Below, in pieces: positions 7,974 to 60,417 of a stretch of DNA of 64,000 nt (the first letter of the stretch is position 1; each line of letters opens with the position of its first letter). The notes under the pieces are model-generated. The model saw only the letters and a list, made by a program, of their open reading frames with translations, did no database searches and was not told the origin of the DNA. A program made the translations under genes and the position numbers. This stretch comes from an uncultured bacterium. GTDB lineage: Bacteria; Elusimicrobiota; Elusimicrobia; Elusimicrobiales; Elusimicrobiaceae. The stretch covers positions 1-64,000 of the forward strand of contig CASEVJ010000006.1 in assembly GCA_949291365.1 (NCBI GenBank). Reading direction: 5' to 3'.

Positions 7974-9209
7974 ATGAATGACGTGAAAGATTTGCTGAAA
8001 AAAATAGACGGATATCGTGATTTTATTATTGATTTGCAGACTAAAATGACCGCCTGCCCCGCCATCACTCCGCACGAAAAAGGCGGCCTGGGGGAAGCTG
8101 CCAAGGCGGAGGTATTGTTAAAAGCGCTTAAAGCCATGAAATTTGACGAAATTGATGTGTTGGAAGCCAAAGACTCCGCTTCTCCGACGGGAGTGCGCCC
8201 CAATATTGTAGCCAAATATTATGGCCAAAACCGCAAAAAAACGCTGTGGGTGATGGCCCACATGGACGTGGTGCCCCCGGGAGATTTGTCCATGTGGAAA
8301 ACCGATCCTTTTAAAGCGGTGGTAAAAGGGGATAAAATTTACGGCCGCGGCACGGAGGACAATCAGCAGGGGCTGATGTCGGGCTTATTGGCAGTAAAAG
8401 CCATGATGGACGCCGGCATACGCCCGCCGGTAAATTATGCGTTGCTTTTGAATGCAGATGAAGAAGTAGGCAGCGATTACGGGATTGTGACGGTACTGAA
8501 AAAACACGGCAAAATTTTTGGCAAAGAGGACAGCTTTATCGTGCCTGACAGCGGCAATTCTAAAGGGGACGTGATTGAAATAGCCGAAAAGAATATGCTG
8601 TGGCTGAAAATTACTGTTGAAGGAAAGCAGACACATGCTTCCACGCCTCAAAACGGCAACAATGCTTTTGTAGCGTCCAGCCATTTGGTGGTAGCGTTGC
8701 GGGATTTGTATAAAAAGTTTAATAAAAAAGACCGCCTCTTTGATGTGCCGGGCAGTGTGTTTGAACCCACCAAGCATGAGCCCAATGTGCCCAATGTCAA
8801 CACCATTCCGGGCAAAGAAGTGTTGTATGTGGACTGCCGCATTTTGCCTTGCTATACCAATAAACAGGTGTATGATGAGGCGGTTAAAATTGCCAAAACG
8901 ATAGAGAAAAAATTCAAAGTTAAAATTACGGTGCAGGCCATTATTAACGACAGTTCCAAACCGACCGACAAGAATGCTCCCCTTGTCAAATTGCTGGCCC
9001 AGCATGTCAAAGCCGTGTACCGCAACCAGCCCAAAGTGCAGGGAGTAGGCGGCGGCACGGTGGCGGCCTATTTGCGCAATGCCGGCTTCCCGGCGGTGGT
9101 ATACTCTAAATTGGACGAAACCATGCACCAACCCAATGAGTACAGCAGTATCAAAAATACAATGGGCGATGCCAAAGTGTTTGCCTTGGTCGCCATGAAC
9201 TTAAAATAA
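7974..9209 (+). CDS. M20-family metallopeptidase (dipeptidase/deacylase-like)
   Basis: This cytoplasmic protein of 411 residues has no signal peptide. It carries the M20 dizinc pattern: VMAHMDVVPPGD (His and Asp), GRGTEDNQQG (bridging Asp), NADEEVGSDYG (general base Glu and Glu ligand), PDSGNSKGD (Asp ligand) and the C-terminal His in LDETMHQPNEY. The lid-domain His is in KQTHASTPQNG. All catalytic positions are filled, so it should be active as an amidohydrolase on a small peptide or N-acyl amino acid. The substrate is not readable. A good ribosome site, AGGAGA, lies ahead of the ATG. It follows the Nif3 gene by 11 bases and precedes the pseudopilin by 9, so the three are probably in one transcript. 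Confidence 0.88.
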   Translation: MNDVKDLLKKIDGYRDFIIDLQTKMTACPAITPHEKGGLGEAAKAEVLLKALKAMKFDEIDVLEAKDSASPTGVRPNIVAKYYGQNRKKTLWVMAHMDVVPPGDLSMWKTDPFKAVVKGDKIYGRGTEDNQQGLMSGLLAVKAMMDAGIRPPVNYALLLNADEEVGSDYGIVTVLKKHGKIFGKEDSFIVPDSGNSKGDVIEIAEKNMLWLKITVEGKQTHASTPQNGNNAFVASSHLVVALRDLYKKFNKKDRLFDVPGSVFEPTKHEPNVPNVNTIPGKEVLYVDCRILPCYTNKQVYDEAVKIAKTIEKKFKVKITVQAIINDSSKPTDKNAPLVKLLAQHVKAVYRNQPKVQGVGGGTVAAYLRNAGFPAVVYSKLDETMHQPNEYSSIKNTMGDAKVFALVAMNLK

Positions 9210-11239: not shown

Positions 11240-12559
11240 TTATTTGACCTTTAACTGGGATACCTGTTTCACTAGGTTCAGCGCCACTTTGTAGGCCTTG
11301 AACATATCTTCTTCGCTCAACCACTCGGTAAACGCATGCGGATTGTTCTGCCCGGTGAATACCGTGTAGCCGCCAAAACCATGTTTGGCCATAATCATGG
11401 CAGAGGTGGTGCCGGCGCGTTCTTTCTTGGTATTGGGGGTAACACCGGCGTCTTTCATGGCACTGCTCAACAAATCCAACGCTTCGGGTTTGACCCCGTA
11501 GGCCACGTTTTCATACTGTTTGATGACCTGGATTTCAATTTCCGTGCCGAGGGCGCGTTCCAAGCTGTCGGCGGCATGTTTGATGCCGTCTAAATAGCGT
11601 TTGCCTTCCTGCTGGTCAAAGTAGCGCAGGCGGAAATCTACCATGTGGGTATTGTTTACCGGGTCATATTCAATATGATGGGGTTCCAGGTAGCCCTGTT
11701 CGCCGGTGCTGTTGTTGGGCAGGTTTTTGGAAGGAGCGGCCGCGGCAATCAAGTCCCCAATGGGTTTGACAGAGTTGCGGTAGCCGTTTTCCGCGGCATA
11801 GGATTGATGTCCGTTTACGCCTTTGGCGGTAACCAACACGCGGTCAGCCGAGAAGTTTGCCACCACGACTTCCCCATTTACGCCTCCGTCAAAATCGTAG
11901 GCGTAGTCCGGGTTATAATATTCCAGTTCCAAACGTTCGGCGCTGCGGCCCACATCTTCGTTCGGGGTGATGACAATTTGAATCGGGCCGTGCGGAATTT
12001 TCGGGTTTTCTGCCAGCGTTTTGATTAAGGTAACGATAATAGTTACACCGGCTTTATCATCGGCGCCCAGGTTGGTGGTGCCGTCGGAAGTAACAATCGT
12101 TTTGCCCAGCATGTTGCGCAAATAAGGGTCGCTGTCAAAATCAATGACATGATTGTTTTTGAGAACAATGGGTTTGCCGTCATAATTTTTGATGACTTGC
12201 GGCTTAATTCCGTTCCCGATAATATCGGGCGTGGTGTCGTAGTGGGCGCTGATGCCCAAAACGGGGGCCTGACGGTTTTTTAGATTGGACGGAATATTCA
12301 CATAGATATATTTGTCCTTGGAAAAATACGTCGGGAAACCAAAACCTTTAATGTCTTCATAAAGGATTTGGGCCATTTCTTCCTGACCGGGAGTCATCCA
12401 TTCGGCGCTGTTGTCGCTCATGCTGCCGGTTTGTACATATTTGACGAAGCGGTCTATCATGCCAGAGCGGTATTTATTTGCCACATTGCCCTGGGCGGAC
12501 GCCGCACCCGCGCTGAAAATAAGCGCCAGCACGACGGGCCATGCAAATAGTTTTCTCAT
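11240..12559 (-). CDS. Exported peptidase T-like M20 aminopeptidase (paralogue 1)
   Basis: This protein of 439 residues has a signal peptide (MRKLFAWPVVLALIFSAGAASAQ) followed by a PepT-like M20 body. PepT is normally cytoplasmic, so export is unusual. The active-site positions are filled: SAHYDTTPD (His and Asp), LGADDKAG (bridging Asp), TPNEDVG (general base Glu, with Asp in place of the second Glu), YDFDGG (Asp), KGVNGHQS (dimer-domain His) and GQNNPHAF (final His ligand). It should cleave small peptides in the periplasm. The ATG at 12559 has AGGAG ahead; an upstream in-frame start would destroy the signal peptide. It is followed by rdgB and preceded by a second, more degenerate paralogue. 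Confidence 0.85.
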   Translation of the reverse strand: MRKLFAWPVVLALIFSAGAASAQGNVANKYRSGMIDRFVKYVQTGSMSDNSAEWMTPGQEEMAQILYEDIKGFGFPTYFSKDKYIYVNIPSNLKNRQAPVLGISAHYDTTPDIIGNGIKPQVIKNYDGKPIVLKNNHVIDFDSDPYLRNMLGKTIVTSDGTTNLGADDKAGVTIIVTLIKTLAENPKIPHGPIQIVITPNEDVGRSAERLELEYYNPDYAYDFDGGVNGEVVVANFSADRVLVTAKGVNGHQSYAAENGYRNSVKPIGDLIAAAAPSKNLPNNSTGEQGYLEPHHIEYDPVNNTHMVDFRLRYFDQQEGKRYLDGIKHAADSLERALGTEIEIQVIKQYENVAYGVKPEALDLLSSAMKDAGVTPNTKKERAGTTSAMIMAKHGFGGYTVFTGQNNPHAFTEWLSEEDMFKAYKVALNLVKQVSQLKVK

Positions 12560-12680
12560 AAGTTTTTCTCCTGTGTGAAAATTGATCAAAGAAGCGCAGC
12601 AAATCTGTTTCACAATCTTATTTTAGTTAATCGGTTTTCTTTTTCACAAGGGCCAAAAGACCTAAAAAAGACCTGGGCCC

Positions 12681-12715
12681 GAAAAAATAAAAAACCCCGC
12701 CTTAAAAGGCGGGGT
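12681..12715 (-). terminator. Terminator after PepT-like paralogue 2
   Basis: Arms 12695-12702 and 12707-12714 pair over 8 bp (CCCCGCCT/AGGCGGGG) and are followed on the minus strand by TTTTTTATTTTTT. It separates the two PepT-like genes transcriptionally. Confidence 0.92.
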
Positions 12716-12732
12716 GCAAAGCGTAGGGTTTT

Positions 12733-14076
12733 CTAGGGCTGCGGCGTATAATCTGTCCAGCCCGCCGCCGTGCTGATTAAAGTGCGCAGGGCAGCTTCCA
12801 TGACGTCTATATCCGCATATTCCAATGCGGTGTGTTTATTAAAAACCCCAGAAAAAACTTCCACCGTAGGCAGCCCTTTGGCACAAAGCAGTGCATTGTT
12901 CGTGCCGCGCCGCGCAGACACCGGGTGGGGCTTGATGTCTTCGTCGCGCATGGCTTGCTGCAATACCGTCAATAAAGGGGCGGGCAGAGAATCTTTTGCA
13001 TTAGTGTATTCATCTGTAAAAGAAAGGTCGGCCTGCACCAGTTTGGGGTTCATGGCCTTGACGGTATTGAAAGCTTGGGTGACGGCTTGTGTGAGCTCTT
13101 GCATTTCCTGCGGGGTAAAAGCGGCAATCTGGCCGAGAATGGTGCTGGTGTCTTCTTGCTGCAGGATAGACTGCACCCAAATATAGCCGCGGGTGCCGGA
13201 CGTTGTTTCCGGTCGGAGGTGGCGCGGCAACAGCGTGTGAAAGTCCGACGCCATAAGCACATTATCTGCAAAAGCGGCGTTCATGGCCTGGCCCGGATCT
13301 GCAGAGCGGTTGCCTTCAAAGACAGCGGTAAAAGTGCGGGAAGCAAAATTCTCCGTGACTATTTCTCCCACATTGGCTCCGTCCACCATATAGGCGTAGG
13401 TTGCGCCTAATGAAGCGGGGTCAAAATCCTGCAGTACTTTTCCGTTTTCCGTATCCGGCAGGAAAGCGATTTGAATGGTGCCGTGTGCTATGCTCCGGTT
13501 GCCCAGCAAGTAGTCCGCCAGTGTCATAATCAGCGCTATGCCGGCTTTGCCGTCCGCACCCAACAGGGTGCCGCCGGACGCAGTTAGCAAGTTATGGCTG
13601 CGCGCCTGCAAAAGCTGGGGGCTGTTGTATTCCGTAAGGCGTAGGTCTTGTTCTTTGTTTATCAGGATGTCGCCGCCGTTGTATTTGGCATGCAGCTGGG
13701 GTTTTACATCCGCCCCCGAAAGCCCCGGGTAAGTATCCAAATGGGCCAGCAGGGCAATAACCGGGGGCGCGTGGCCCGTGGTGGCCGGGATAGTGGCGGT
13801 AACGACGCCGCTTTTAGAAACGGACACATTTTCAGCGCCTATTTGTTTGAGTTCTTTGCCCAGCGCTTTGGCAAAAGATAATTGACCTTTGGTGGAGGGG
13901 ACGTTTTGGGGGTGGGCGTCTGCTTGGGTGTTATATCCCACATAACGTTCCAAACGTTGGGTCAAATCTTCTTTGGCTGTTTGTTTGTCATACTGCATGA
14001 CCGCTTTCCAATTGGGCCCGGCTGCGGCACACAGCGGCAAACACGCACAGCAACATACGGCAAGCAGTTTTTTCAT
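12733..14076 (-). CDS. Exported PepT-like M20 protein lacking key catalytic residues (paralogue 2)
   Basis: This protein of 447 residues has a signal peptide rich in Cys (LLAVCCCACLPLCAAA) and aligns along its length with peptidase T. The zinc ligands survive: LLAHLDTYPG (His, Asp), LLGADGKAG (bridging Asp), the second Glu of LPDTENG, YMVDGA and FNKHTALEY (His). However, the general base Glu of the TPDEE motif is Thr (LPDTENG). The dimer-domain His of the NxxHPG motif is Asp (NRSADPG). Both are needed for normal catalysis in M20 peptidases, so it is likely inactive or altered, perhaps a peptide-binding protein. AGGAGGG precedes the ATG. It sits between valS and paralogue 1 with its own terminator. 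Confidence 0.8.
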   Translation of the reverse strand: MKKLLAVCCCACLPLCAAAGPNWKAVMQYDKQTAKEDLTQRLERYVGYNTQADAHPQNVPSTKGQLSFAKALGKELKQIGAENVSVSKSGVVTATIPATTGHAPPVIALLAHLDTYPGLSGADVKPQLHAKYNGGDILINKEQDLRLTEYNSPQLLQARSHNLLTASGGTLLGADGKAGIALIMTLADYLLGNRSIAHGTIQIAFLPDTENGKVLQDFDPASLGATYAYMVDGANVGEIVTENFASRTFTAVFEGNRSADPGQAMNAAFADNVLMASDFHTLLPRHLRPETTSGTRGYIWVQSILQQEDTSTILGQIAAFTPQEMQELTQAVTQAFNTVKAMNPKLVQADLSFTDEYTNAKDSLPAPLLTVLQQAMRDEDIKPHPVSARRGTNNALLCAKGLPTVEVFSGVFNKHTALEYADIDVMEAALRTLISTAAGWTDYTPQP

Positions 14077-14133: not shown

Positions 14134-16851
14134 TTACGCTAAATCCGTCAAAGCGGCCTGGGCCTGCGCCAACAGGGTTTCTGCGGCGGCAAGCTCTGCT
14201 TTGGTTTTGTCTATTTGTTCTTGGGGCGCGTGCTTGATAAAGTTTTCCTGGGCCAGACGCGCTTTGCGCGAAGCAATGTTGGCCTGCGCGGCGGCGATGT
14301 CTTTTTCCAGGCGTTTCTTCTCTTTATCAAAATCAATCAGCCCCGTCAGCGGTACATAAATAGCTATTTTGCCGTAGGTAGCGGTGGCGGTTTGTGCGGG
14401 CTTGGGCAGATTGACGCCAATTTGCAGCTCGTCAATTTTGGCCATTAATTTGATATATCCTTCCTGCTCACGCACGATGGAGAGTTCCTCTTCGTTTTTG
14501 GCGGAGAGCATCGCCTTAATTTTCAGCCCCGGCGGCACATTAAACTGGGCGCGTATGGTGCGGATTTCTTTGGTCACGCCCTGCACTGTTTCCATTTTTT
14601 TGACGGCTGCAGCATTGAGCAGCGAAGCGTCAAACTGCGGGTATTGCTGGCGCAGCAGGAACTCTTCTTTTTCGTCTACATACGGGCGCAAGCTGGCGGC
14701 GATTTCTTCGGTAATAAACGGTATCAACGGGTGCAGCGCCTTGAGCGTGCCGTATAAAATGTTGACGCACAGCGCCATGACGTATTCTTTTTCCTGCGTT
14801 TGGAAGCGCTGTTTGGCCAGCTCAATGTACCAGTCGCAGAAGTCGCCCCACAGGAAATGGTAAAGCGTGTTGGCGGTTAAGGCGAGATTGTATTTTTCTA
14901 TGCCTTCGCGGGCGGTTTTGACGGCGTTTTCATAGCGGTCTAAAATCCACTGGTCGGCCAGCTCTTTGGCTTCTTTGGGCATAGAGAGCGGGCCTTTTAT
15001 GCCTTCCATATTCATTAAAATAAAGCGGGAGGCGTTGTAGATTTTGTTGCAGAAATTGCGCGCGCCAGTAATGCTTTCCTCAGCGTAAGGAATGTCTTTG
15101 CCGGGCACGGCCTGCATCAGAAGCGAAAAGCGCACCGCGTCTGTGCCGTATTTGGCGGTCATATCCAGCGGGTCAATGACGTTGCCCAGAGATTTGGACA
15201 TTTTCTTGCCGCGTTTATCGCGCACAATTCCGTTTAAAAACACGTCTTTAAACGGCAGCTGGCCTTTAAATTCCAGCCCCATCATCACCATACGGGCCAC
15301 CCACAGATACAGAATTTCATAGCCCGTGACCATAGAGGTAGTGGGGTAAAAATAGTTTAATTCTTCGGTTTCGTCCGGCCAGCCGAAAACGGACATCGGC
15401 CACAAGGCGGAAGAAAACCACGTGTCCAGCACGTCGGGGTCTTGCACCAAGTCGTGCCCGCCGCAGAGGGGACATTTTTCCGGTTTGTGGTAGGAAACTA
15501 TCGGCTTTGCGCCGTCTTCAAAAGAGACCTTGGTCAGCTGTTCTTTGCCTTGTTTGTCGGTGGCAAAAGTCAGCCCCTTTTCACTGCAGTGTCGGCAATA
15601 CCACACGGGAATGCGGTGCCCCCACCAAATTTGGCGGGAAATGCACCAGTCCTGTATGTTTTTAAGCCAGTTTACAAAAGGGGTTTTCCAGCTGGCGGGG
15701 TGAAATTGCAGCTCGCCCGATTCGGCCGCGGCAATAGCCGGGGCAGTCAGCTTGTCCATTTTGACAAACCACTGTTCGCTCAAATACGGCTCAATGGCGT
15801 TGTGGCAGCGGTAGCAGGAAGAAACGGCGTTTGTATATTTTTCTTCTTTGACCAGCAAGCCCGCCGATTCCAAATCCTGTACGGTTTCTTTGCGGCAGAG
15901 GTCGCGGTCCATGCCATTGTATTTTTCGGGGCAGTTCATCATCTTGCCTTTGTCGTTGATGACGGTCATCATCGGCAGATTGTGGCGTTGGCCCACTTCG
16001 TAGTCAGTGGCGTCGTGCGCCGGGGTAATTTTTAAGGCGCCGGTGCCGAATTCCATTTCCACCGCTTCATCGGCAATAACGGGAATGGCGCGGTTGGCCA
16101 GCGGAATGATGACTTTTTTGCCCACCAAATCTTTATAGCGTTTGTCATTGGGGTTGACGGCGATGGCCGCATCGGCAAAAATAGTTTCCGGGCGGGTGGT
16201 GGCAATGACTACGCCGTCGCTGCCGTCTTCGCCTTTATAGCGCAGGTACCACAGTTTGCCGGCATGCTGTTCGTGTTCCACTTCAATGTCGGACAAAGCC
16301 GTAGAGCAGCGCACACACCAGTTAATCAAGCGTTTGCCGCGGTAAATATAGCCCTTTTCCCACAGGCGTTTAAAGCATTCGTAAACGGATTTGGCCCGTT
16401 TTTCGTCCATGGTAAAGCGGATATTTTCGGGGGAGAGGTCCAAGCTCCAGCCCATTTTTTTAAATTGGTTAAAAATGGCGTTGCCGCATTCGTTGTACCA
16501 ATCCCAAACGGTTTGCACAAATTTTTCGCGTCCTAAGTCGTGGCGGGAAAGGTGCTGTTCTTTGGCCAGCTTTTTTTCAATGACGTTTTGGGTGGCTATG
16601 CCGCCATGGTCGGTGCCGGGCACCCAGTAGGATTCCTGTCCGAACATGCGGTGCGCGCGGATAAGCGCGTCCTGCAACGTGTCGTTAAGGGCATGGCCCA
16701 TGTGCAAAGCGCCGGTGATGTTCGGAGGCGGAATAACGATAACAAAGGGTTTTTTGTTTTTATCTACTTTAGCGGTAAAAAGTTTGGCTTCCTGCCATTT
16801 ATTGACTAGTTTTTCTTCTACTTCTTTGGGTTCGTATGCTTTAGGCAACAT
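14134..16851 (-). CDS. valS: Valyl-tRNA synthetase
   Basis: This 905-residue class Ia aminoacyl-tRNA synthetase charges tRNA-Val. The HIGH-type motif is GALHMGHALND and the KMSKS motif is GKKMSKSLGN. The editing (CP1) domain shows the ATTRPETIFAD and TPAHDATDYEVG segments. Cys pairs such as CVRCS, CYRCH, CRHC and CPLC suggest zinc knuckles in the insertion. The C-terminus (about 835-905) is the basic coiled coil typical of bacterial ValRS, beginning GLIDFDKEKKRLEKDI. A GAAGGAA site precedes the ATG. It is monocistronic, with its own terminator. Confidence 0.97.
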   Translation of the reverse strand: MLPKAYEPKEVEEKLVNKWQEAKLFTAKVDKNKKPFVIVIPPPNITGALHMGHALNDTLQDALIRAHRMFGQESYWVPGTDHGGIATQNVIEKKLAKEQHLSRHDLGREKFVQTVWDWYNECGNAIFNQFKKMGWSLDLSPENIRFTMDEKRAKSVYECFKRLWEKGYIYRGKRLINWCVRCSTALSDIEVEHEQHAGKLWYLRYKGEDGSDGVVIATTRPETIFADAAIAVNPNDKRYKDLVGKKVIIPLANRAIPVIADEAVEMEFGTGALKITPAHDATDYEVGQRHNLPMMTVINDKGKMMNCPEKYNGMDRDLCRKETVQDLESAGLLVKEEKYTNAVSSCYRCHNAIEPYLSEQWFVKMDKLTAPAIAAAESGELQFHPASWKTPFVNWLKNIQDWCISRQIWWGHRIPVWYCRHCSEKGLTFATDKQGKEQLTKVSFEDGAKPIVSYHKPEKCPLCGGHDLVQDPDVLDTWFSSALWPMSVFGWPDETEELNYFYPTTSMVTGYEILYLWVARMVMMGLEFKGQLPFKDVFLNGIVRDKRGKKMSKSLGNVIDPLDMTAKYGTDAVRFSLLMQAVPGKDIPYAEESITGARNFCNKIYNASRFILMNMEGIKGPLSMPKEAKELADQWILDRYENAVKTAREGIEKYNLALTANTLYHFLWGDFCDWYIELAKQRFQTQEKEYVMALCVNILYGTLKALHPLIPFITEEIAASLRPYVDEKEEFLLRQQYPQFDASLLNAAAVKKMETVQGVTKEIRTIRAQFNVPPGLKIKAMLSAKNEEELSIVREQEGYIKLMAKIDELQIGVNLPKPAQTATATYGKIAIYVPLTGLIDFDKEKKRLEKDIAAAQANIASRKARLAQENFIKHAPQEQIDKTKAELAAAETLLAQAQAALTDLA

Positions 16852-50080: not shown

Positions 50081-53000
50081 ATGAACAATAAAACCAAAGA
50101 GCCCATTGCCATTGTCGGCATCGGCGCCATTATGCCCGGATCTTTAAATAAAGACGAGTTCTGGCAAAACATTCAAACTGGTAAATATTGCATCACCGAA
50201 ATTCCCCAATCTTATTGGGATTATAAACTTTTCTACAGCCCGGACCATAAAGCCGAAGATAAACTTTATTCCAAAATTGGCGGCTTTATTCCCGCTGGAT
50301 TTAAATTTAATTCTATTAAGTACCGCATTCCTCCCCAAATCGCCAAGCAGATGGATACCGTGCAGCACCTAGCTATTGAAACCACCCGCATGGCTTTGGA
50401 AGACAGCGGATATGACAAAAAAGAATTTGACCGTAACCGCTGTGCGGTAATTGTAGGCAATTCTATGGGCGGCATGAAAAACGAGATGTCCAACACGCGT
50501 TTGAACCGCCCGTTTTTATATGAAATTTTGAAAGAAACCCCTACCTATAAATCGCTTTCTCCGGACGCCGAACAGAAACTGATGGACGAAATGGACGAAG
50601 GCGTCCGCCAGAGATTTACCCCTATTACTGAGGACTCCATGCCCGGCGAACTGGCTAACGTTATTGCCGGCCGCTTGGCTAACGTCTTTGACATACACGG
50701 TACCAACTTTACCGTAGACGCTGCGTGCGCCACCTCTTTGGCGGCGGTGGATCAAGCCGTCAACGGCTTGCGCGAAGGAAACTTTGATATGGCTATTGTG
50801 GGCGGTGTAGACCAGATGATGTCGCCTTCTGCCTATATTAAGTTCTGCAAAATCGGCGCTTTGTCTGAAAAGGGTTCTTGCCCCTTTGACGCCAAGGCCG
50901 ACGGCTTTGTCATGGCCGAAGGCGCCGGTACGGTCATTTTGAAACGTTTGTCTGACGCGGTTAAAGACGGAGACAAAATTTACGCCGTTATCCGCGCTAT
51001 TGGTGCATCTTCCGACGGAAAAGGCAAAGGCATTACCGCCCCCAATCCCAAAGGACAAAAGATTGCCGTAGAAAAGGCCTTTGAACAGGTGGACTATACG
51101 CCGGGCGATGTGGGCCTGGTGGAAGCGCACGGCACCAGCACCCGCGTGGGTGACGCTGTGGAGCTGAACGCTTTGTATGAAATTTTTGCCCCGTATGCCA
51201 AGCCCGGTACCATTGGTCTGGGCAGCGTCAAAAGCCAAATCGGTCACGCCAAGGCCGCGGCGGGTATTGCCTCTTTAATTAAGACCTCTTTGGCCTTATA
51301 TAATAAGGTATTGCCTCCTTCTGTCAATTTTGAAACTCCGAACCCGACGGTGAACTGGGCTACCAGCCCCTTCCGCGTCATTACCAAGCTGGAGCCGTGG
51401 AACACCGACAAAGTGCGCCGCGCCAACGTGTCCGCCTTCGGCTTTGGCGGCACCAACTTCCATGTAGCTATGGAAGAGATGAATGACGGCCTGCTTAAAA
51501 AGACGGAGGAAAACAAAGTCTGCGCCGCCGCAATTTCAAATCCTACCCCCGCAGTAGAGGAGAAACAAGAAATGAATGCCAGTGAGTATACGCTGCTTGT
51601 CCCGGGCGAAAAAATCCAAAGCGATGTGCTGACCTTCTCGGCAGACACCAAGCAGGATTTGTTCAGCGAATTGGGCAAAGCCATTTTAGCTATTAAATAT
51701 GACCCTACCTATCTGCCCAGCATCTCTTACAAAAACCACATTCAGAAGCCGCGCAAATTTGCGGTGTCTATTAATGTGGAAAATCCGGAAAAGCTGAAAG
51801 AAAAAATTGAGTATTTTATTAAAATCGCCGGTGGGCAGGATGTGTGGACGCAGGAATCTTTGTATTTAAAGATGAAAGGTATCTATCCGTTCACTCCGAC
51901 GGAAATTAAACCCAAAGTATGCTTCATGTTCCCGGGGCAGGGCTCCCAATATGTGGACATGATGAAAGATTTGGCTTCCAAATATAAAATAGTCAAAGAT
52001 ACTTTTGATGAAGCCGACCGCCTGCTGATTAAAATTATCGGACAAAACTTGACCGATACCTTGTGGAGTAAACCCGGCGAAACCAAAGAACAAATCGCCG
52101 CGCGCGAAGCCGCCATTAAGAAAACGGAAATGACCCAGCCGGCGATGCTCACGGCAGATATTGCCATGATGCGTCTGCTTTCTTCATTTGGTTTAAAACC
52201 CGATGTAGTGATGGGCCACAGCTTGGGCGAGTATGCCGCTGCGGTGGCTGCTGGTATTTTTGATTTTGAAAACGGGCTCAAGGCCGTCTGCACCCGCGGC
52301 AAAGTGATGTCTGAAATACGCGTGGAAGACAACGGCAAAATGGCCTCTATCGCCGCTACGGCTGAAGCGGTGGAGCCGGAGCTCAAACGCATCAATGGGT
52401 ATGTGGCAGTAGCCAACAAAAACTGCCCGACGCAAACCGTTATTGCCGGTGCGTCCAAATCCGTAGACGACGCTATTAAAATGTTTACCGATATGGGCAT
52501 TCAGGCGGTGCAAATCCCGGTGTCTCACGCGTTTCACTCTGAAATCGTGCGCCCGGCTATGCCGCAGTACCGCGCATTCTTGGATACCTTGACGTTCCAC
52601 GCGCCTACTATGCCTATTACCACCAACGTGACGGCGGAATTTTATCCTAATGACCCCGAGAAAATCAAAGACCTCATGGTCACGCAGATTTCCCACTCGG
52701 TGGAATGGATGAAACAGCTTAAAACCACCTATGATTCCGGTGTGCGCTTGTTTGTGGAATGCGGCCCCAAACGGGTGCTTTCTGCATTAGCAGCCAGCAC
52801 GCTTTCTGACAAGAAAGACATTAAAGTACTGGCCTCCAACCACCCCAAAAAGGGCGGTATTGTGGAATTTAACGATTTGTTTGCCAACCTGATTTCTTCC
52901 GGCATTTACATTGACTGGAAAGGCACCGATATTTACGGCGATAATTCCACCTATAACCCTGCGTTTGTAAAATGGGTGGACGCCACCGCCACGCCGACTG

Positions 53001-56000
53001 AAAAATGTGAGGGAAATATGCCTGCCACTATGGAAGAACAGCTGCAAGCGGGCCAGGAATGCTGCGCACGCAAAAATGTGGTCATCAGCGGTATTGCCGC
53101 CGGCGGCCCGGGCAGCTGGGACAAAGTATTCCGCGAAGGGGTGCTGGACGAAATTTTGCAGGGGCGCAATTTAATTGAGCCCGTCAGCTCCGACTGCCAG
53201 CAAAAACAAATTGACAAGAATGTGGAAATCGTCATTAAATCCAAAGACGGCAACCACCGTATTGAACATTTGGCTTCTGTTTCCCAGGCCATTAAGCTGG
53301 CCGCCAAAGCAGGGAGCTTTGACTTGGAAAAAGAGTTTGGCCTGCCTGCCAAATGGGTGGCTTCTATGGACAAAGCTTTCCAGCTGGCTATTGCGGCGGG
53401 TATCTTGGCTTTGAAAGACGCCGGCATTCCGCTGGTGCTCTACTATAAACCCACCTCTACCGGCGGCTACTTGCCCGACCGCTGGGGCCTGCCGGAAGAG
53501 ATGATTGACAATACGGGCGTCATTTTCACTTCTGCCTATCCTATTACCAACAGCATGATGGGGGAATTTGCCCAAAAGCTGACGGCCCTGCTGGAAAATA
53601 AAAACGCGAAAGAATTAACTAAATTCTACGAAACGTTTATCAACCAGATTTCCGACCCGGCTTTAAAAGCCGAACTGAAAGCGTGGTACGACGCAGAAAT
53701 GGCCAAAGTGCCAGCTTTGCAGTCGTTTACCTCCCAGTTTATTTTAAAGACCATTATTATTGCCCAGTCCCACTTTGCACAGTGGATCCGCGCCAAAGGC
53801 CCCGCCACCTCTATGAGTGCGGCGTGCGCTTCTACGGCGCAGGCCATTTCCGTGGCGCATGACTGGATCCGCCTGGGCCGGGCCAAACGCGTCATCGTCA
53901 TCAGCGCAGACGATATTACCAACGACTCTATCGCCGAGTGGATGCTGACGGCATTCTTGGCCTCCGGCGCCGCTACGACAGAGGGCGATGTGACCAAAGC
54001 CGCCCTGCCTTTTGACCGCCGCCGCAACGGTATGATTGTGGGTATGGGGGCTGTGTCTTTGGTGGTAGAAGAACAGAGTGAAGTGGAAAAACGCGGCATG
54101 AAACCGCTGGCCAAGCTCTTGGCTACCGAAATCCGCAACAGTGGCTTCCACGTGACCCGCTTGGATGTCAACCATGTGGCCCAAGTGATGAATGAGCTGG
54201 TATCCACGGCGGAAAAAGATTTCGGTTTGAACCGCTCTGATATTGCTAAACAACTGGTATTTATCTCGCACGAAACTTATACGCCTGCACGCGGCGGTTC
54301 CGCCAGTGCCGAAGCGTATGCGCTTAAATCCACCTTTGGCAAAGACGTCAGCTCCGTCATCGTCAGCAATACCAAGGGCTTTACCGGCCATTCTATGGGC
54401 GCCGGCTTGGAAGACGCTATTGCCGTGCGCTGCTTAAACACCGGTATCGTACCCCCGATTGCCAATTTCAAAGAAGCCGATCCTGAATTGGAAGGCATTA
54501 CCTTAAGCAAAGGCGGCCATTATGACTTTAAGTATGCGCTTCGCCTGGCGGCGGGTTTTGGCTCCCAGATTGGCATGACGCTATTGGAAAGAATGTGGAC
54601 AGAAGGCGAGCCCCGCATTTATGACAATGCCAAACATGAAGCGTGGCTGAGACAAATTTCTAACCAAGAAAACCCGGTGCTGGAAATTGACCACAACACC
54701 TTGCGTGTGAAAGACAACTATAAACACGGGGTGAAACCTTCCTTAATTATGGAAGGAGCGCAAGCTTTTGTGGACAAAGCCAGCATGATGCACAGCCACA
54801 CCGCGCCGAAAGCGGCAGCTGCCCCTGTGGCGGTTCCCGCCGCGGTAACCCCGGCGGCAACTCCTGCTCCGGCGGCTGTGCCTGCTTCTGCCCCGGCTCC
54901 TGCGGCCCAACCTGCCGCTGCGCCGAAAGCGGCTCTGCCGAACTTGGACGAAGCGTCCGTAACCAAAGACATTTTGGCTATCGTATCTGAGAAGACCGGC
55001 TACCCCGAAGATATGCTGGACTTAGATTTGGATATGGAAGCGGACCTGGGTATTGACACCGTCAAACAGGCCGAGTTGTTTGCCATTATGCGTGAGAAGT
55101 ATCAGATTGCGCGCCAAGAGGGCGTACAGCTCAAAGATTATCCGACCATTCGCTCCATTATTAAATACGCCATGAACAATGCTGGCAGTGAAGGTGCGGC
55201 TTCTGCGGCCCCGGCTGCTGTGGCTCCTGCCGCGGTAACCCCGGCGGCTCAACCTGCTCCGGCGGCTGTGCCTGCTTCTGCCCCGGCTCCTGCGGCCCAA
55301 CCTGCCGCTGCGCCGAAAGCGGCTCTGCCGAGCTTGGACGAAACAGCGGTAACCAAAGACATTTTGGCGATTGTAGCCGAAAAGACCGGCTACCCTGAGG
55401 ATATGCTGGACTTGGACTTGGATATGGAAGCCGATTTGGGTATTGATACCGTCAAACAGGCCGAATTGTTTGCCATTATGCGCGAGAAATACCAAATCGC
55501 GCGTCAGGAAGGCGTACAGCTTAAAGATTATCCGACGATTCGCTCCATTATTAAATATGCTATGGCCAATGCCGGCAGCGAAACGGGTGCGGCTTCTGCG
55601 GCTCAATCTGCCGCTGCGCCGGTAACCCCGGCAACCACACCTGCCCCGGCTCCTGCCGCCCAACCTGTTGCGGCTCCGAAAGCAGCTCTGCCGAGCTTGG
55701 ACGAAGCGGCTGTCACCAAAGACATTTTAGCGATTGTGGCGGAGAAAACGGGATACCCCGAGGACATGCTGGACTTGGATTTGGATATGGAAGCGGACTT
55801 GGGTATTGACACGGTCAAACAGGCCGAACTGTTCGCTATTATGCGCGAGAAGTATCAGATTGCGCGCCAAGAGGGCGTACAGCTCAAAGATTATCCGACC
55901 ATTCGCTCCATTATTAAATACGCCATGAGCAATGCCGGCAGCGAAGGTGCGGCTTCTGCGGCCCCGGCTGCTGTGGCTCCTGCCGCGGTAACCCCGACCG

Positions 56001-59000
56001 CCGCGACTGTCCAACCGGCAGTTGCTCCTGCTCCGGCGGTGGCGCCTGCAGCCCAACCTGCTGTAGCGGCTCAGCCTGCCGCTGCCCCGGCAAAAGCAGC
56101 CGGCCCGATGCCGAGCTTAGACGAAGCTGCGGTAACCAAAGACATTTTAGCGATTGTGGCGGAGAAAACGGGATACCCCGAAGATATGCTGGACTTGGAT
56201 TTGGATATGGAAGCGGACTTGGGCATTGACACCGTCAAACAGGCCGAGTTGTTTGCCATTATGCGTGAGAAATACCAGATTGCGCGCCAAGAGGGCGTAC
56301 AGCTTAAGGATTATCCGACCATTCGCTCCATTATTAAATATGCTATGACCAATGCCGGCACCGAAGGTGCGGCGGCTCCTGCCGCGGCAACCCCGGCTCC
56401 TGTGGCTCATCCTGCCCCGGCGGTAACTCCTGCGGCCCAACCCGCTCCAGCGCCTGTGGCTCAGCATGCTGCGGCTCCTGCCGCTGCGCCGAAAGCAGCC
56501 GGCCCGATGCCGAGCTTAGACGAAGCGTCCGTAACTAAAGATATTAAAGCCATTGTAGCGGAAAAGACCGGCTACCCCGAGGATATGCTGGACCTGGACT
56601 TGGATATGGAAGCGGACTTGGGTATTGACACCGTCAAACAGGCCGAACTGTTTGCCGTCATGCGCGAGAAGTACCAGATTGCGCGCCAGGAAGGCGTACA
56701 GCTCAAAGATTATCCGACCATTCGCTCTATCATTCAATATGCTATGGCTAATGCCGGCACCGAAGGTGCGGCGGCTCCTGCCGCGGTAACCCCGGCCCCG
56801 GCTCCTGTGGCTCAGCCTGCCCCGGCGGTAACTCCGGCTCCGGCGCCTGCAGCTCAGCCTGTTCCCGCTGCGGCGGTTCAACCTGCCCCGGTTCCTGTGG
56901 CCCAGCCGCAAGAGCCGCAGCTGCCCACCATTCAGGTAGCTACGGTGCAGGAAGCGGTGCCGACGGCGGAAAAGGTGGAGAAACCTTCTGAAGAAATGTT
57001 GACCACCAACCCGACCGAGCCGATTAAACCGCACGTTTCTTTGGCGGAACGCCCGGAGCGTGAGGGCTACGCCGGAGAACATTGCCACGAGAAGAAACTG
57101 CGCAATGTAACCGTGGTGGCGCAGGCCCCGCTGACAGAGCGCGAAAACCGCCGTTTGTCCAAAGACCGCACGGTGCTGATTTTTGCCGATAACTCCCAAC
57201 TGATTAAGGCCTATCAGGAAGAGTTCAAAGAATTGGGCGTAAAGACTCACGTGTTCACCACACTCAAGACCCGCAGCAAAAATACCACAATTGTGAACTG
57301 GGAATCGTACGAAGAAACCGAAGCCGCGCTCAAAGAGTACGCCGCAGAAGATCCCAACATTCAGGGTATTGTGTATTTGCTGGGAGCCACCGTCAAGAAA
57401 TTTGACAAGAAAGCCAGCCCGCACAATGAACTGACCAAATACGTTATGCCGTTGTTTATTGCCTTGCGCGTATTTGAAAAAGGATTGTCCAACCGTACCG
57501 ACGCCGATACGTTCTTTGCAGTCAACACGAAGATTGATGGTAACTTCGGTTACACGACCAAAGATGAGTTTAACCCCATCTCCGGCGCGCTGACCGGCGG
57601 CGTTACCTGCTACCGCAAAGACGTCTATGAACGCACCGGCGCGATTAGCAAGCTCATTGACTTTGAGCCCACCACCACGCCAGACGAAATGGCCCGCTAC
57701 ACCATGGAAGAAGTACTCCACGGCGATATGCGCCTGATGATTGGCGCGCGGGAAGGCGGACGCAGCACTATCTTGTCCGTCCCGGTGCGCTTGGACAGAA
57801 GCGAAAAACGCTTTGACCTGGCCGGCAAGACCATTATCTTTACCGGTTCGGGCCGCGGCATTGGCGCGATGCTCAGCCAGAAAATTGCGGCGCAGTACCA
57901 CAGCAAGATTATCGTCTTGGATATCATTGAAATCCAGGAAAAGACTCCGCTGTGGGCGTCCATGAACGAAGCCGAACTGGCGGCGCTTAAGAAACAAATC
58001 TGGGAAGACCTCAAAGCCGACAAGACGCAAAAGGCCACCCCGGTCATATTGGAGCGCGCTTTCGGCCGCGTGAAAGACTCTATCACGCTTTACAACAACT
58101 TGCAGAAATTGCGCGACCTGGGTAGCGAAGTGGAATACTACCACTGCGACGTGATGAACAGCTCCATGGTCAAAGAAGTCTGCACGAAAATCAAAGCCAA
58201 AAACGGCCGCGTGGACGGGTTAATCCACTTTGCCGGATTGGAACGCTCCAAGCTGATTTACGACAAAGACCCCGCGGAATATTACCGCATCTTTGACGTA
58301 AAAGCCACCAGCTTTGCCAGCTTCTTGGCTAACAATATCGTGCGTGACGACGGCTTCTTCGCTTTTGCCTCTTCCATTGCCGGTAAATACGGCAACCTGG
58401 GCCAGAGCGATTATGCCTCCGCCAACGACTATTTGGCCAAATCGGCTTTCTCGCTGACCAACCAGGGCTACCGTGCCATTTCTATCGCGATGAGCGCCTA
58501 TAAGAATGTGGGTATGGGCGTGCGCGCCGGCGTGGAAACGTTTCTTAAATCCAACGGCGTAGACTTTGTAGACCCCGAAGACGGTATGCAGATATTCTTG
58601 GACGAAATCGTGTACGGCGACGTGCCCGAAATCGTGCTGACCGGCTCTTTGGGCCGCCTGGACTGGGATCACCAGCACCGCTTTGAGATGGACGAAATTG
58701 TCCCCACGGGCGCGCAAAACGCGCCCAAAGGAGGCAATGGCTCTCACGGAAACGGCGGCTCCTCTTCTGCCGCGCCCAAAGCGGCGGAAGCACCTTTGCC
58801 TGATCCGGTGCAGGCCAACCACTTTTTAGCCAACGTGTCCTCTCTGGAAAAAGGCAAAGAAATTCATGCCGAAAAAGAATTTAACTTGGAGTCAGACCCA
58901 TATCTGGCCGACCACGCTATTGAAGGCACCCCCTATGTGCCGGGCGTGATGGGCATTGAAACGTTTATGGAAACCGCCACCGCTTTGGGCGGACGCGTGC

Positions 59001-59665
59001 CGCAGGGCTTAAAGGACGTGCATTTTTACCTGCCTATTAAACTCTTGCGCAACCGCCCGCAGGCCGTGCGCGTAATCGGCACGGAAGTCAACGGCGATAT
59101 TTCCATGGAAATTGAGTCCGACTTTATCAACAGCAAAGGCGTAAAAATGGGCAACACCCGCCGCCATTTTACGGCGCACGCTATGCAGGACGGCTTTGTG
59201 TCCACCTGGAATGAAGTGAAAGACCAAATCCAGTTAGACCCCAACGCCGCACCGCAAATTACCAAAGAAGAAATCTATAAAAAGTATTTCCACGGGCCGA
59301 GCTTTCAGGTGCTGGGCGGCATTTTAAGAGCCGATAAAGACAGCTCTTTAGCCATTTATAACACCACCCCGCAGCCGCAGTGGAAAGACGGCGAAAAAGT
59401 ACTGCTGGCTAACCCGATGCTCATTGAAGCGGCCTTCCAGTGCTGCGGTTTTCGGGATATGGCCATTGACAACAAGATGACCTTGCCCGACGGCATAAAA
59501 GAAGTAGCCGTATTTAAACGCCAGACCCCGCCGCAGAAGCTGTATCTCTACGGACGGTTTAAAGGCTTGACCGCCGACGGAAAAACATTGCACGACGCCT
59601 ATGTGTTTGATCAAAACGGCGACGTGTGGGTGGAATTCCACGGATATCAGGCCATTGGCCAATAA
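50081..59665 (+). CDS. PfaA-like iterative polyketide/lipid synthase, KS-AT-KS-(ACP)5-KR-DH
   Basis: This giant enzyme of 3194 residues assembles an acyl chain from malonyl-type units. Ketosynthase 1 (about 1-470) has Cys216 in DAACATS, His350 in EAHGTST and His389 in GHAKAAAG. The acyltransferase (about 613-930) has GQGSQY and Ser714 in GHSLGEY. Ketosynthase 2 (about 995-1510) has Cys1249 in SAACAST, His1397 in SHETYTPARGG and His1437 in GHSMGAG. Five ACPs (about 1619-2225) follow, each with Thr at the phosphopantetheine position (1660, 1790, 1911, 2051, 2184). The ketoreductase (core 2582-2860) has GSGRGIG and Tyr2778. The dehydratase (about 2900-3190) has His2945 in DHAIEGTPYVPG. No enoyl reductase or thioesterase is present. 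PfaA of PUFA synthases has the same order without the second KS. The product is unknown. Confidence 0.9.
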   Translation: MNNKTKEPIAIVGIGAIMPGSLNKDEFWQNIQTGKYCITEIPQSYWDYKLFYSPDHKAEDKLYSKIGGFIPAGFKFNSIKYRIPPQIAKQMDTVQHLAIETTRMALEDSGYDKKEFDRNRCAVIVGNSMGGMKNEMSNTRLNRPFLYEILKETPTYKSLSPDAEQKLMDEMDEGVRQRFTPITEDSMPGELANVIAGRLANVFDIHGTNFTVDAACATSLAAVDQAVNGLREGNFDMAIVGGVDQMMSPSAYIKFCKIGALSEKGSCPFDAKADGFVMAEGAGTVILKRLSDAVKDGDKIYAVIRAIGASSDGKGKGITAPNPKGQKIAVEKAFEQVDYTPGDVGLVEAHGTSTRVGDAVELNALYEIFAPYAKPGTIGLGSVKSQIGHAKAAAGIASLIKTSLALYNKVLPPSVNFETPNPTVNWATSPFRVITKLEPWNTDKVRRANVSAFGFGGTNFHVAMEEMNDGLLKKTEENKVCAAAISNPTPAVEEKQEMNASEYTLLVPGEKIQSDVLTFSADTKQDLFSELGKAILAIKYDPTYLPSISYKNHIQKPRKFAVSINVENPEKLKEKIEYFIKIAGGQDVWTQESLYLKMKGIYPFTPTEIKPKVCFMFPGQGSQYVDMMKDLASKYKIVKDTFDEADRLLIKIIGQNLTDTLWSKPGETKEQIAAREAAIKKTEMTQPAMLTADIAMMRLLSSFGLKPDVVMGHSLGEYAAAVAAGIFDFENGLKAVCTRGKVMSEIRVEDNGKMASIAATAEAVEPELKRINGYVAVANKNCPTQTVIAGASKSVDDAIKMFTDMGIQAVQIPVSHAFHSEIVRPAMPQYRAFLDTLTFHAPTMPITTNVTAEFYPNDPEKIKDLMVTQISHSVEWMKQLKTTYDSGVRLFVECGPKRVLSALAASTLSDKKDIKVLASNHPKKGGIVEFNDLFANLISSGIYIDWKGTDIYGDNSTYNPAFVKWVDATATPTEKCEGNMPATMEEQLQAGQECCARKNVVISGIAAGGPGSWDKVFREGVLDEILQGRNLIEPVSSDCQQKQIDKNVEIVIKSKDGNHRIEHLASVSQAIKLAAKAGSFDLEKEFGLPAKWVASMDKAFQLAIAAGILALKDAGIPLVLYYKPTSTGGYLPDRWGLPEEMIDNTGVIFTSAYPITNSMMGEFAQKLTALLENKNAKELTKFYETFINQISDPALKAELKAWYDAEMAKVPALQSFTSQFILKTIIIAQSHFAQWIRAKGPATSMSAACASTAQAISVAHDWIRLGRAKRVIVISADDITNDSIAEWMLTAFLASGAATTEGDVTKAALPFDRRRNGMIVGMGAVSLVVEEQSEVEKRGMKPLAKLLATEIRNSGFHVTRLDVNHVAQVMNELVSTAEKDFGLNRSDIAKQLVFISHETYTPARGGSASAEAYALKSTFGKDVSSVIVSNTKGFTGHSMGAGLEDAIAVRCLNTGIVPPIANFKEADPELEGITLSKGGHYDFKYALRLAAGFGSQIGMTLLERMWTEGEPRIYDNAKHEAWLRQISNQENPVLEIDHNTLRVKDNYKHGVKPSLIMEGAQAFVDKASMMHSHTAPKAAAAPVAVPAAVTPAATPAPAAVPASAPAPAAQPAAAPKAALPNLDEASVTKDILAIVSEKTGYPEDMLDLDLDMEADLGIDTVKQAELFAIMREKYQIARQEGVQLKDYPTIRSIIKYAMNNAGSEGAASAAPAAVAPAAVTPAAQPAPAAVPASAPAPAAQPAAAPKAALPSLDETAVTKDILAIVAEKTGYPEDMLDLDLDMEADLGIDTVKQAELFAIMREKYQIARQEGVQLKDYPTIRSIIKYAMANAGSETGAASAAQSAAAPVTPATTPAPAPAAQPVAAPKAALPSLDEAAVTKDILAIVAEKTGYPEDMLDLDLDMEADLGIDTVKQAELFAIMREKYQIARQEGVQLKDYPTIRSIIKYAMSNAGSEGAASAAPAAVAPAAVTPTAATVQPAVAPAPAVAPAAQPAVAAQPAAAPAKAAGPMPSLDEAAVTKDILAIVAEKTGYPEDMLDLDLDMEADLGIDTVKQAELFAIMREKYQIARQEGVQLKDYPTIRSIIKYAMTNAGTEGAAAPAAATPAPVAHPAPAVTPAAQPAPAPVAQHAAAPAAAPKAAGPMPSLDEASVTKDIKAIVAEKTGYPEDMLDLDLDMEADLGIDTVKQAELFAVMREKYQIARQEGVQLKDYPTIRSIIQYAMANAGTEGAAAPAAVTPAPAPVAQPAPAVTPAPAPAAQPVPAAAVQPAPVPVAQPQEPQLPTIQVATVQEAVPTAEKVEKPSEEMLTTNPTEPIKPHVSLAERPEREGYAGEHCHEKKLRNVTVVAQAPLTERENRRLSKDRTVLIFADNSQLIKAYQEEFKELGVKTHVFTTLKTRSKNTTIVNWESYEETEAALKEYAAEDPNIQGIVYLLGATVKKFDKKASPHNELTKYVMPLFIALRVFEKGLSNRTDADTFFAVNTKIDGNFGYTTKDEFNPISGALTGGVTCYRKDVYERTGAISKLIDFEPTTTPDEMARYTMEEVLHGDMRLMIGAREGGRSTILSVPVRLDRSEKRFDLAGKTIIFTGSGRGIGAMLSQKIAAQYHSKIIVLDIIEIQEKTPLWASMNEAELAALKKQIWEDLKADKTQKATPVILERAFGRVKDSITLYNNLQKLRDLGSEVEYYHCDVMNSSMVKEVCTKIKAKNGRVDGLIHFAGLERSKLIYDKDPAEYYRIFDVKATSFASFLANNIVRDDGFFAFASSIAGKYGNLGQSDYASANDYLAKSAFSLTNQGYRAISIAMSAYKNVGMGVRAGVETFLKSNGVDFVDPEDGMQIFLDEIVYGDVPEIVLTGSLGRLDWDHQHRFEMDEIVPTGAQNAPKGGNGSHGNGGSSSAAPKAAEAPLPDPVQANHFLANVSSLEKGKEIHAEKEFNLESDPYLADHAIEGTPYVPGVMGIETFMETATALGGRVPQGLKDVHFYLPIKLLRNRPQAVRVIGTEVNGDISMEIESDFINSKGVKMGNTRRHFTAHAMQDGFVSTWNEVKDQIQLDPNAAPQITKEEIYKKYFHGPSFQVLGGILRADKDSSLAIYNTTPQPQWKDGEKVLLANPMLIEAAFQCCGFRDMAIDNKMTLPDGIKEVAVFKRQTPPQKLYLYGRFKGLTADGKTLHDAYVFDQNGDVWVEFHGYQAIGQ
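54935..56757 (+). repeat. Five tandem ACP-coding repeats with Ala/Pro linkers
   Basis: Five copies of an ACP-coding unit of about 250 bases are spaced 121-140 codons apart (Thr codons at 55058, 55448, 55811, 56231 and 56630). The copies differ mainly by synonymous changes, and copies 3 and 4 are nearly identical at DNA level over their first half. The linkers are Ala/Pro-rich and vary in length. Confidence 0.95.
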
Positions 59666-60417
59666 TGCAGTACAAAACGCAGTTTATAAAAATTAAAGAC
59701 CTGCCCCCGGCAGACTCTTTTCTCTCTTCCAGCGAAAGCGCCTACTTGCAAACGCTTCGCTCCGATAAGCGAAAAGGGGACTGGCTCGGGGGCCGGTTTG
59801 CGTTAAAGACGCTTTTGGCGCGCGAAAGCGGCCTGTTGCCGGTGTGCAGTTTGCCGCCGGCGCGCCCGCAAACGCCGGACGCGGCGCAGGCAGAAGGGGG
59901 AGTGCCCCTCTCTGAAATGTCTGCGGCGGCGCTGGCGGTGCTTAAGCAGATTGATATTGTAAAACTGCCCAGCGGCGCGCCGCAGGTGTTTGTTGGCTCC
60001 GTGCCCGACGCGCGCAGCGTGAGCATTACCCATTCGGGCCCATGGGCGGCGGCGGCGGTGTCTGCGCCGCATACGTTTTTAGGCATAGATTTGGAAAAAA
60101 TAGAAAAAAGAAGCCGCGCCTGGGCCGAAGAATTTTTTGACCCGTCCGAAAAAGGCCCCGCCACAGAGGCGCATTTAACAAAAGTGTGGACGCAAAAAGA
60201 AGCGGTGGTAAAGCTATTGGGGAGGGGGCTTTCGCTTAATACGCGCGAGATTGTGCTGGACAATGAGCGCCTGCGGCTGACGGGGCGTGCCCTGCAGGCG
60301 TGGCAGCAGGCGGCAGAGCCGCAAATTATACTTAACTCGGTTCCGTTTGACAATGATTTTATATTTACCGTGGCCTTTGCGCCCGCCGCCGCAGGCGCGA
60401 AGTTTGGTAAAATGTAG
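59665..60417 (+). CDS. Sfp-type 4'-phosphopantetheinyl transferase
   Basis: This 250-residue enzyme transfers phosphopantetheine from CoA to a carrier protein. The Sfp-type signatures are FLGIDLEKIEKRS and VWTQKEAVVKLLGRGLSL, with WTxKEAxxK intact. SITHSG is the upstream motif. Its ATG overlaps the stop codon of the synthase (TAATG at 59663-59667), so both are translated from one message at linked rates. The obvious client is the five-ACP array. If it acts there, it must modify threonine, which is unusual. No other PPTase is visible in this window. Confidence 0.93.
   Translation: MQYKTQFIKIKDLPPADSFLSSSESAYLQTLRSDKRKGDWLGGRFALKTLLARESGLLPVCSLPPARPQTPDAAQAEGGVPLSEMSAAALAVLKQIDIVKLPSGAPQVFVGSVPDARSVSITHSGPWAAAAVSAPHTFLGIDLEKIEKRSRAWAEEFFDPSEKGPATEAHLTKVWTQKEAVVKLLGRGLSLNTREIVLDNERLRLTGRALQAWQQAAEPQIILNSVPFDNDFIFTVAFAPAAAGAKFGKM

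Follow-up and report, generated by a model that had tools for sequence, protein, structure and literature searches.

The 64,000-nucleotide stretch considered here (the whole of which we call the window) is part of contig 6 of the 1.39 Mb genome of an Elusimicrobiaceae-type gut bacterium and carries, on its minus strand, two neighboring genes for relatives of peptidase T (PepT), P2 and P1, in the order valS-like gene, P2, P1, rdgB-like gene. A sequence-only reading of this DNA had described them as tandem exported paralogs, the second of which (P2) would be a probable pseudoenzyme that may bind peptides or regulate the first (P1). Both open reading frames (ORFs) were found where that reading had placed them, and both have export-type N-termini according to a hydropathy rule and to the sequence itself. 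The longest P1 ORF opens at GTG 12613; the likelier start is ATG 12559, directly ahead of the signal peptide. The pseudoenzyme call turned out to be well supported by recurrent loss of the active site across the genus under purifying selection.

Active site, fold and export of P2 and P1

The residues compared are those which we take to be the catalytic Glu (Glu173), the zinc ligands and the lid residues (His223, Arg280) of PepT itself, with PepT numbering counted from the 1fno alignment. The window P2 keeps 5/5 zinc ligands, as had been read from its sequence, and has Thr at the catalytic Glu, while the His and Arg of the lid have given way to Asp and Ala (Table 1). The stretch LPDTENG, which brings Thr209 onto Glu173, aligns with TPDEEVG of PepT without a gap in the comparisons to 1fno, 1vix and 3ife. 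For Asp260 at His223 the 1fno alignment has a one-residue gap nearby, and the register was confirmed by orthologs reading ..RAVHPG.. at this place. Another alignment that would restore the P2 residues was rejected, since the alignment is gap-free at the catalytic Glu and the register is backed by active-type orthologs (we call P2s that keep the catalytic Glu active-type and those that miss it inactive); comparison with the solved PepT structures thus confirmed the losses that had been proposed. Beyond the sequence-only reading, the second Asp of the DDK motif is Gly176 in the window P2 and the lid Arg280 is replaced by Ala318. The window P1 has a complete catalytic set, with Asp at the zinc ligand Glu174 as an additional point.

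According to passages of a review on other M20 enzymes, five metal ligands, a catalytic Glu and a lid His, Asn and Arg have equivalent roles in these proteins, and the counterparts of His223 and Arg280 are thought to touch the substrate C-terminus or the transition state (PMC6271292). In PepD, a His-to-Ala exchange hardly lowered the activity and an Arg-to-Ala exchange abolished it (PMC6271292, same passages). Because the former effect was mild, the argument for inactivity of P2 is carried by the catalytic Glu and the Arg. We consider the window P2 very probably inactive biochemically; with its zinc cage still present, it may still bind zinc. Canonical peptide binding appears unlikely, because the substrate-anchoring residues were lost too, and the earlier proposal that P2 binds peptides is weakened by the loss of His223 and Arg280 in the window copy as well as by the zinc ligand losses in other inactive copies described below.

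P2 is homologous to peptidase T (M20B tripeptide aminopeptidase; 1fno, 1vix, 3ife), to which both window proteins align over nearly the whole mature length, with E values of 1.3e-61 to 5.9e-72. It passes the NCBIfam subfamily model PRK05469.1 (345.8 bits vs. a cut-off of 255) and scores under the equivalog TIGR01882 (261.2 vs. 285.75) and under PRK13381.1 (285.3 vs. 293). The active-type P2 tried against Pfam matches Peptidase_M20, and three further inactive P2s matched no Pfam family at 0.1. An AlphaFold2 model of the window P2, built with 51 orthologs, reached a mean predicted local distance difference test score (pLDDT) of 91 and a predicted template modeling score (pTM) of 0.86. The solved chains nearest to it were PepT 1vix and 1fno (Z 48.3; for 1fno a root-mean-square deviation of 1.6 over 406 residues), and PepT chains ranked first in Foldseek, too. 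The inactive window P2 is therefore predicted to have a complete, well-ordered PepT fold with catalytic and lid domain; the shared fold is uninformative on function.

P2 differs from PepT in being exported and in having lost the catalytic Glu along with both lid residues, His and Arg; most other inactive orthologs lack zinc ligands as well. By a simple hydropathy rule, used in place of a trained predictor, an export-type N-terminus was present in 61/61 P2 rows that have an N-terminus (25/25 inactive, 36/36 active-type) and in 0/24 PepT-type comparison rows, in line with the earlier remark that these proteins are exported although PepT is normally cytoplasmic. For P1 the rule was passed by 54/63 rows as first trimmed; eight of the nine misses pass from a better-chosen Met, and the ninth is truncated. 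The location of P2 would be periplasmic.

Table 1. Features of P2, P1 and the adjoining DNA in the window
Feature	Position	Strand	Basis
P2, exported PepT-fold protein, 447 amino acids, predicted catalytically inactive	12733..14076	-	NCBIfam PRK05469.1, AlphaFold, PDB matches
P2 signal peptide, approx. residues 1-20	14017..14076	-	sequence, hydropathy rule
P2-specific conserved mature N-terminus, WK----Y-K	13984..14010	-	ortholog alignment
P2 His112 codon, zinc ligand kept (PepT His78)	13741..13743	-	alignment
P2 Asp175 codon, bridging zinc ligand kept (PepT Asp140)	13552..13554	-	alignment
P2 Thr209 codon, at PepT catalytic Glu173	13450..13452	-	alignment to solved PepT
P2 Glu210 codon, zinc ligand kept (PepT Glu174)	13447..13449	-	alignment
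P2 Asp232 codon, zinc ligand kept (PepT Asp196)	13381..13383	-	alignment
P2 Asp260 codon, at PepT lid His223	13297..13299	-	alignment, ortholog register
P2-specific helix with loop in the lid domain, DN-LMASDFHTLLPR--RP, nearly invariant among active-type as well as inactive orthologs	13210..13266	-	ortholog alignment
P2 Ala318 codon, at PepT lid Arg280	13123..13125	-	alignment, ortholog register
P2 His415 codon, zinc ligand kept (PepT His379)	12832..12834	-	alignment
P2-specific conserved C-terminal segment, EYADxDVME---R	12784..12822	-	ortholog alignment
P1, exported PepT-like peptidase, catalytic residues intact	11240..12559	-	ORF, NCBIfam and structure alignment
P1 signal peptide, approx. 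22 residues, ..ASA/Q	12494..12559	-	sequence
Terminator-like hairpin between P2 and P1, 9 pairs, 7 G-C	12694..12715	-	hairpin scan
Promoter-like site upstream of P1	12620..12649	-	2 overlapping matches, consensus match only
valS-like gene	14134-16851	-	name by recognition of translation
rdgB-like gene, likely ATG start close after P1		-	name by recognition of translation

Catalytic residues of P2 and P1 across the genus

We looked for P2 and P1 in 66 genomes belonging to the genus and fetched the copies. P2 was found in 62/66 genomes (two copies truncated or split, one broken); the four genomes in which it was not found are G012, G028, G034 and G035, three of which have P1 at a contig end, where absence cannot be claimed. 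P1 was found in 64/66 genomes and 63 rows were aligned, ORFs of <300 amino acids having been dropped before the counts; hence the P1 of G047, which is in two pieces, lies outside the 63. The 24 PepT-type comparison rows comprise 18 from the genus (only 18/66 genomes supplied a cytoplasmic PepT), 5 from other genera and 1 distant homolog, the PepT-like CAN_L164, which stands outside the comparison consensus and is counted among the 24. Among 24 genomes from other genera of the family, all P2 matches listed had an identity of 31-37%, which marks them as ordinary PepT or remoter relatives, and one genome gave none. A scan of records used P2-specific patterns, by which only P2-like genes are findable, and the 54 P2s that it gave coincide with proteins of the genus set; 48/54 records are titled Elusimicrobiaceae, Elusimicrobiales or similar and 6/54 "uncultured bacterium". 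Candidatus Avelusimicrobium excrementipullorum is the title of one record. Their named sources are animal gut or feces (e.g., sheep colon, yak rumen, horse feces).

The catalytic Glu is kept in 36/62 P2 rows and missing in 26/62, the window copy included. None of the nine scored residues has been lost in the 36 active-type P2s. Inactive copies have S, G, A, K, Q, H, T, V or Y at the position of the catalytic Glu; a zinc ligand is also missing in 23/26 of them and the lid His in 25/26. P1 was said to keep both the catalytic Glu and the lid His, and this proved true of 63/63 P1 rows, as of 24/24 PepT-type comparison rows. One P1 row is truncated ahead of the lid Arg and the last zinc ligand, and the zinc ligand Glu174 is Asp in 55/63 P1 rows and Glu in 8/63. 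With its catalytic residues intact, P1 is predicted to be the working exported peptidase. A divergent P1 subtype of about 500-520 amino acids with an ETGGA motif (L087, L111, L112, L118, L129, L136, L138) occurs in genomes with active-type and in genomes with inactive P2s.

These counts bear on the possibility that P2 is still an enzyme whose chemistry or substrate has shifted, e.g., a metal-dependent hydrolase with another base. The retention of all zinc ligands in the window copy speaks for it; the varied replacements at the catalytic Glu between species and the loss of a zinc ligand from most inactive P2s speak against it. Short of a systematic search for a migrated base, we regard this explanation as very unlikely.

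The number of losses was estimated from a tree of 62 P2 and 6 PepT rows, on the assumption that a lost site is never regained. The best P2 tree has five changes between active-type and inactive, giving five inactive groups: (1) L110, (2) L106 and L092, (3) a clade of 8, (4) L071 and L065 and (5) a clade of 13 that includes the window copy. In the approximately unbiased (AU) test, the groups for which were named after the tree was seen, so that the p-values are too small (the margins are large), a single ancient origin of all inactive copies was rejected (p-AU 2.2e-41), as was a single clade of groups 3, 4 and 5 (p-AU 3.3e-5). Uniting groups 1 and 2 was borderline (p-AU 0.0525), and uniting groups 4 and 5 was not rejected (p-AU 0.64), the tree with the two united even scoring 3.8 log units better. 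Groups 1 and 2 are taken to stand apart from the rest because they sit, together with three active-type members, in a clade of six rows with a support of 100/100. Three losses are thus well supported; the best tree found has five, and five fully separate ones would not be firm. In the clade of the window, the window copy retains all zinc ligands and the other members lost some, so that the catalytic Glu may have been lost there before the zinc ligands.

Selection on P2 and its separation from P1

Omega, the codon-model ratio of nonsynonymous to synonymous substitution rates, was 0.163 (5 rows), 0.105 (group 3 without L124 and L125, hence 6 of its 8 rows) and 0.178 (13 rows, those five included) in inactive P2s, compared with 0.062, 0.096 and 0.092 in three sets of active-type P2s and 0.093-0.110 in three sets of P1. 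With omega set to 1, the log-likelihood of the three inactive sets fell by 220, 465 and 684 units; in these runs kappa was held at about 2.0 and the topology was fixed, and kappa explains part of the drop in log-likelihood. Close-pair ratios by the method of Nei and Gojobori (NG86) were 0.06-0.25 in 6 inactive pairs and 0.05-0.12 in 12 active-type pairs. Selection on the inactive P2s is somewhat relaxed and clearly purifying.

Moreover, the losses are concentrated in the pocket. Sites invariant (>=97%) in 35 active-type P2s were scored in 24 full-length inactive P2s; the partial rows L121, L122 and L123 are out of this comparison and are included in the 62 and in the tree. Retention amounted to 42% for the 9 catalytic sites, to 80% for a further 60 sites that PepT shares and to 90% for the 56 sites specific to P2 (catalytic vs. 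shared p 0.0005, shared vs. P2-specific p 0.04; the rows are related and the p-values serve as a guide only). Of the 22 shared sites that are kept in <70%, most lie within recognizable pocket motifs and some do not. The best-kept P2-specific blocks are WK----Y-K, DN-LMASDFHTLLPR--RP and EYADxDVME---R.

We consider it probable that P2 is a pseudopeptidase which has arisen repeatedly and is maintained by selection for a non-catalytic role. Several observations weigh against this. Inactive P2s evolve somewhat faster than active-type P2s, and the inactive P2 of G027 (L121) contains two in-frame TAA stop codons, both of which are expected of a gene whose need is fading. Conservation of the P2-specific sites could mirror a folding constraint instead of a binding surface. 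Finally, many genomes of the genus are drafts in many contigs, and those named records whose titles state their origin are metagenome assemblies. Alternatively, P2 might be redundant with P1 and decaying, the inactive copies being young relics that are not yet broken, as the repeated losses, the higher omega and the stop codons of G027 would suggest. The P2 of G001 (L123) is also split into two frames, but this copy is active-type and has an unresolved base at the end of its first piece, so that the split may be an assembly gap. Decay would, however, have to be reconciled with an omega far below 1 within all-inactive sets, with losses that are concentrated in the pocket instead of being spread, and with frames and signal peptides that are intact despite long branches, e.g., in the inactive P2s of G017 and G018 (60% identity, NG86 nonsynonymous divergence dN 0.33, synonymous divergence dS 1.99). 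In these two genomes the P2 gene lies directly between the valS-like and rdgB-like genes and retains the P2-specific lid motif. Neither genome, at 91% and 96% completeness, yielded a P1-type match, so redundancy with P1 is no explanation there. Decay seems to us rather unlikely, and a maintained non-catalytic role remains the reading we prefer.

The same two genomes bear on the proposal of the sequence-only reading that P2 regulates P1, in the present form that P2 is an allosteric or heterodimer partner regulating or stabilizing P1, a part that inactive subunits play in certain two-subunit metallopeptidases. P2 and P1 lie on one strand with P2 upstream in 49/49 fetched loci with both ORFs and in the window, both proteins appear to be exported, and no P1 row has lost a catalytic residue, all of which would suit a partnership. 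The proposal is nevertheless weakened by the inactive, lid-motif-bearing P2s of G017 and G018 without a P1-type match and by G053 and G064, where P1 is about 14 and 19 kilobases from P2 on the other strand. It is also weakened by signs that the two genes recombine apart. G042 and G062 (L170 and L173) are 97-100% identical to the end of P2 and 62-83% thereafter, a pattern that looks like a breakpoint of recombination between P2 and P1, the alternative being a chimeric assembly; the P2s of G007 and G061 are 98% identical and the adjoining P1s 55%, those of G013 and G008 93% and 59%. The loss of the lid His from nearly all inactive P2s likewise speaks against a regulator, and the idea that P1 borrows a lid His from P2 in trans is for this reason not favored. 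We find it unlikely that P2 acts through P1. The identity step between these two genomes is sharp and falls in the P2/P1 gap (L170:1900-2300 vs. L042's counterpart L173), as if P1 alleles had been exchanged between species by recombination or one assembly were chimeric.

Terminator-like hairpins between P2 and P1 are a further point against a regulator of P1. A hairpin does lie between the window genes at 12694-12715, as had been noted, but the count there is not above that of shuffled sequence (1 vs. a mean of 0.7); T-rich-tailed hairpins were seen in 44/49 P2-P1 intergenic gaps by a lax script with no shuffled control. Upstream of P1, 2 overlapping promoter-like matches were counted, compared with a mean of 0.2 in shuffles. 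The description of P2 and P1 as tandem paralogs holds insofar as they are neighbors on the same strand, but in the tree P2 joins cytoplasmic PepT and P1 stands on a long separate branch, P1 and P2 being united in 27% of bootstrap trees. To judge by these trees, the split between P1 and P2 is old whichever of them holds, and from their separate recombination and separate tree placement P1 and P2 would be old neighbors evolving apart. Type IV pilin-like ORFs (FTLIELLVVVLIIGIL or similar) lie on the opposite strand between P2 and P1 in L085, L094 and L110 and upstream of P1 in L126.

Elsewhere in the window, a third M20 enzyme is encoded nearby at 7974-9209 (+) (NF010589, 539 bits; signal peptide not evident). 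By eye and from the translation only, 50081-59665 (+) encodes a 3194-amino-acid protein that resembles polyketide or polyunsaturated fatty acid synthases, with a run of near-identical carrier-protein-like repeats, and is followed by a phosphopantetheinyl-transferase-like ORF at 59626-60417.

A proposed role of P2

The course of events that we would propose begins with an active di-zinc peptidase as the ancestor of P2, which would have been sent to the envelope; a copy with a complete catalytic set is still found in many species. The surface of P2 may have had, or gained, a second job, most likely the binding of an envelope partner or the formation of a structural (homo)dimer via its three conserved parts (lid helix, start of the mature protein and C-terminal segment). 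Catalysis might then have become dispensable, perhaps aided by the neighboring active P1, and the active site would have eroded in several lineages while the P2 surface stayed under selection. Going further, P2 might found an envelope family in which the PepT fold is a binding module, its P2-specific surface docking a partner other than P1, with an optional peptidase activity that was dropped three to five times independently in gut Elusimicrobiaceae; we offer this wider picture tentatively, as falling somewhat short of an even chance.

Inactive members of peptidase families are known from other systems. In the two-subunit M16B metallopeptidase one subunit is inactive, and its fold is unrelated to that of PepT. 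Nicastrin and the transferrin receptor have M28-type pseudopeptidase ectodomains, i.e., exported inactive aminopeptidase-fold domains used for binding; unlike P2, they are eukaryotic, belong to M28 and are membrane-anchored. P2 and P1 resemble the two-subunit M16B enzyme, which appears by title in the reference list of a review on pseudopeptidases (PMC11266112), in being a bacterial pair of related metallopeptidase subunits, and differ from it in that the pair is parted by recombination and P2 persists where P1 was not found. As in the metallopeptidase-family pseudopeptidases described in passages of that review, P2 is an inactive homolog beside an active cousin, for which a non-catalytic role is expected; unlike those covered there, its inactivation recurs within one bacterial genus in which active-type orthologs persist (PMC11266112). 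On a term search of the review, M20 turned up in the reference list only, and M28 and nicastrin did not turn up (PMC11266112). No description of the P1 and P2 proteins was met in the literature on Elusimicrobia peptidases, on Avelusimicrobium and on peptidase or M20 pseudoenzymes, as covered by titles, the beginnings of abstracts and passages of PMC11266112, PMC6271292 and PMC4012986.

For annotation the finding is a warning, since an NCBIfam subfamily model names the window P2 tripeptide aminopeptidase PepT though it is very probably inactive, and no Pfam family was matched by it at E<=0.001. The genus also offers a natural replicate experiment on the change from enzyme to pseudoenzyme, with several independent losses in one genus and mostly at one locus, where active-type and inactive orthologs occur and the active neighbor P1 serves as a control. 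The P2 system thereby makes it testable whether a non-catalytic role preceded the loss of catalysis.

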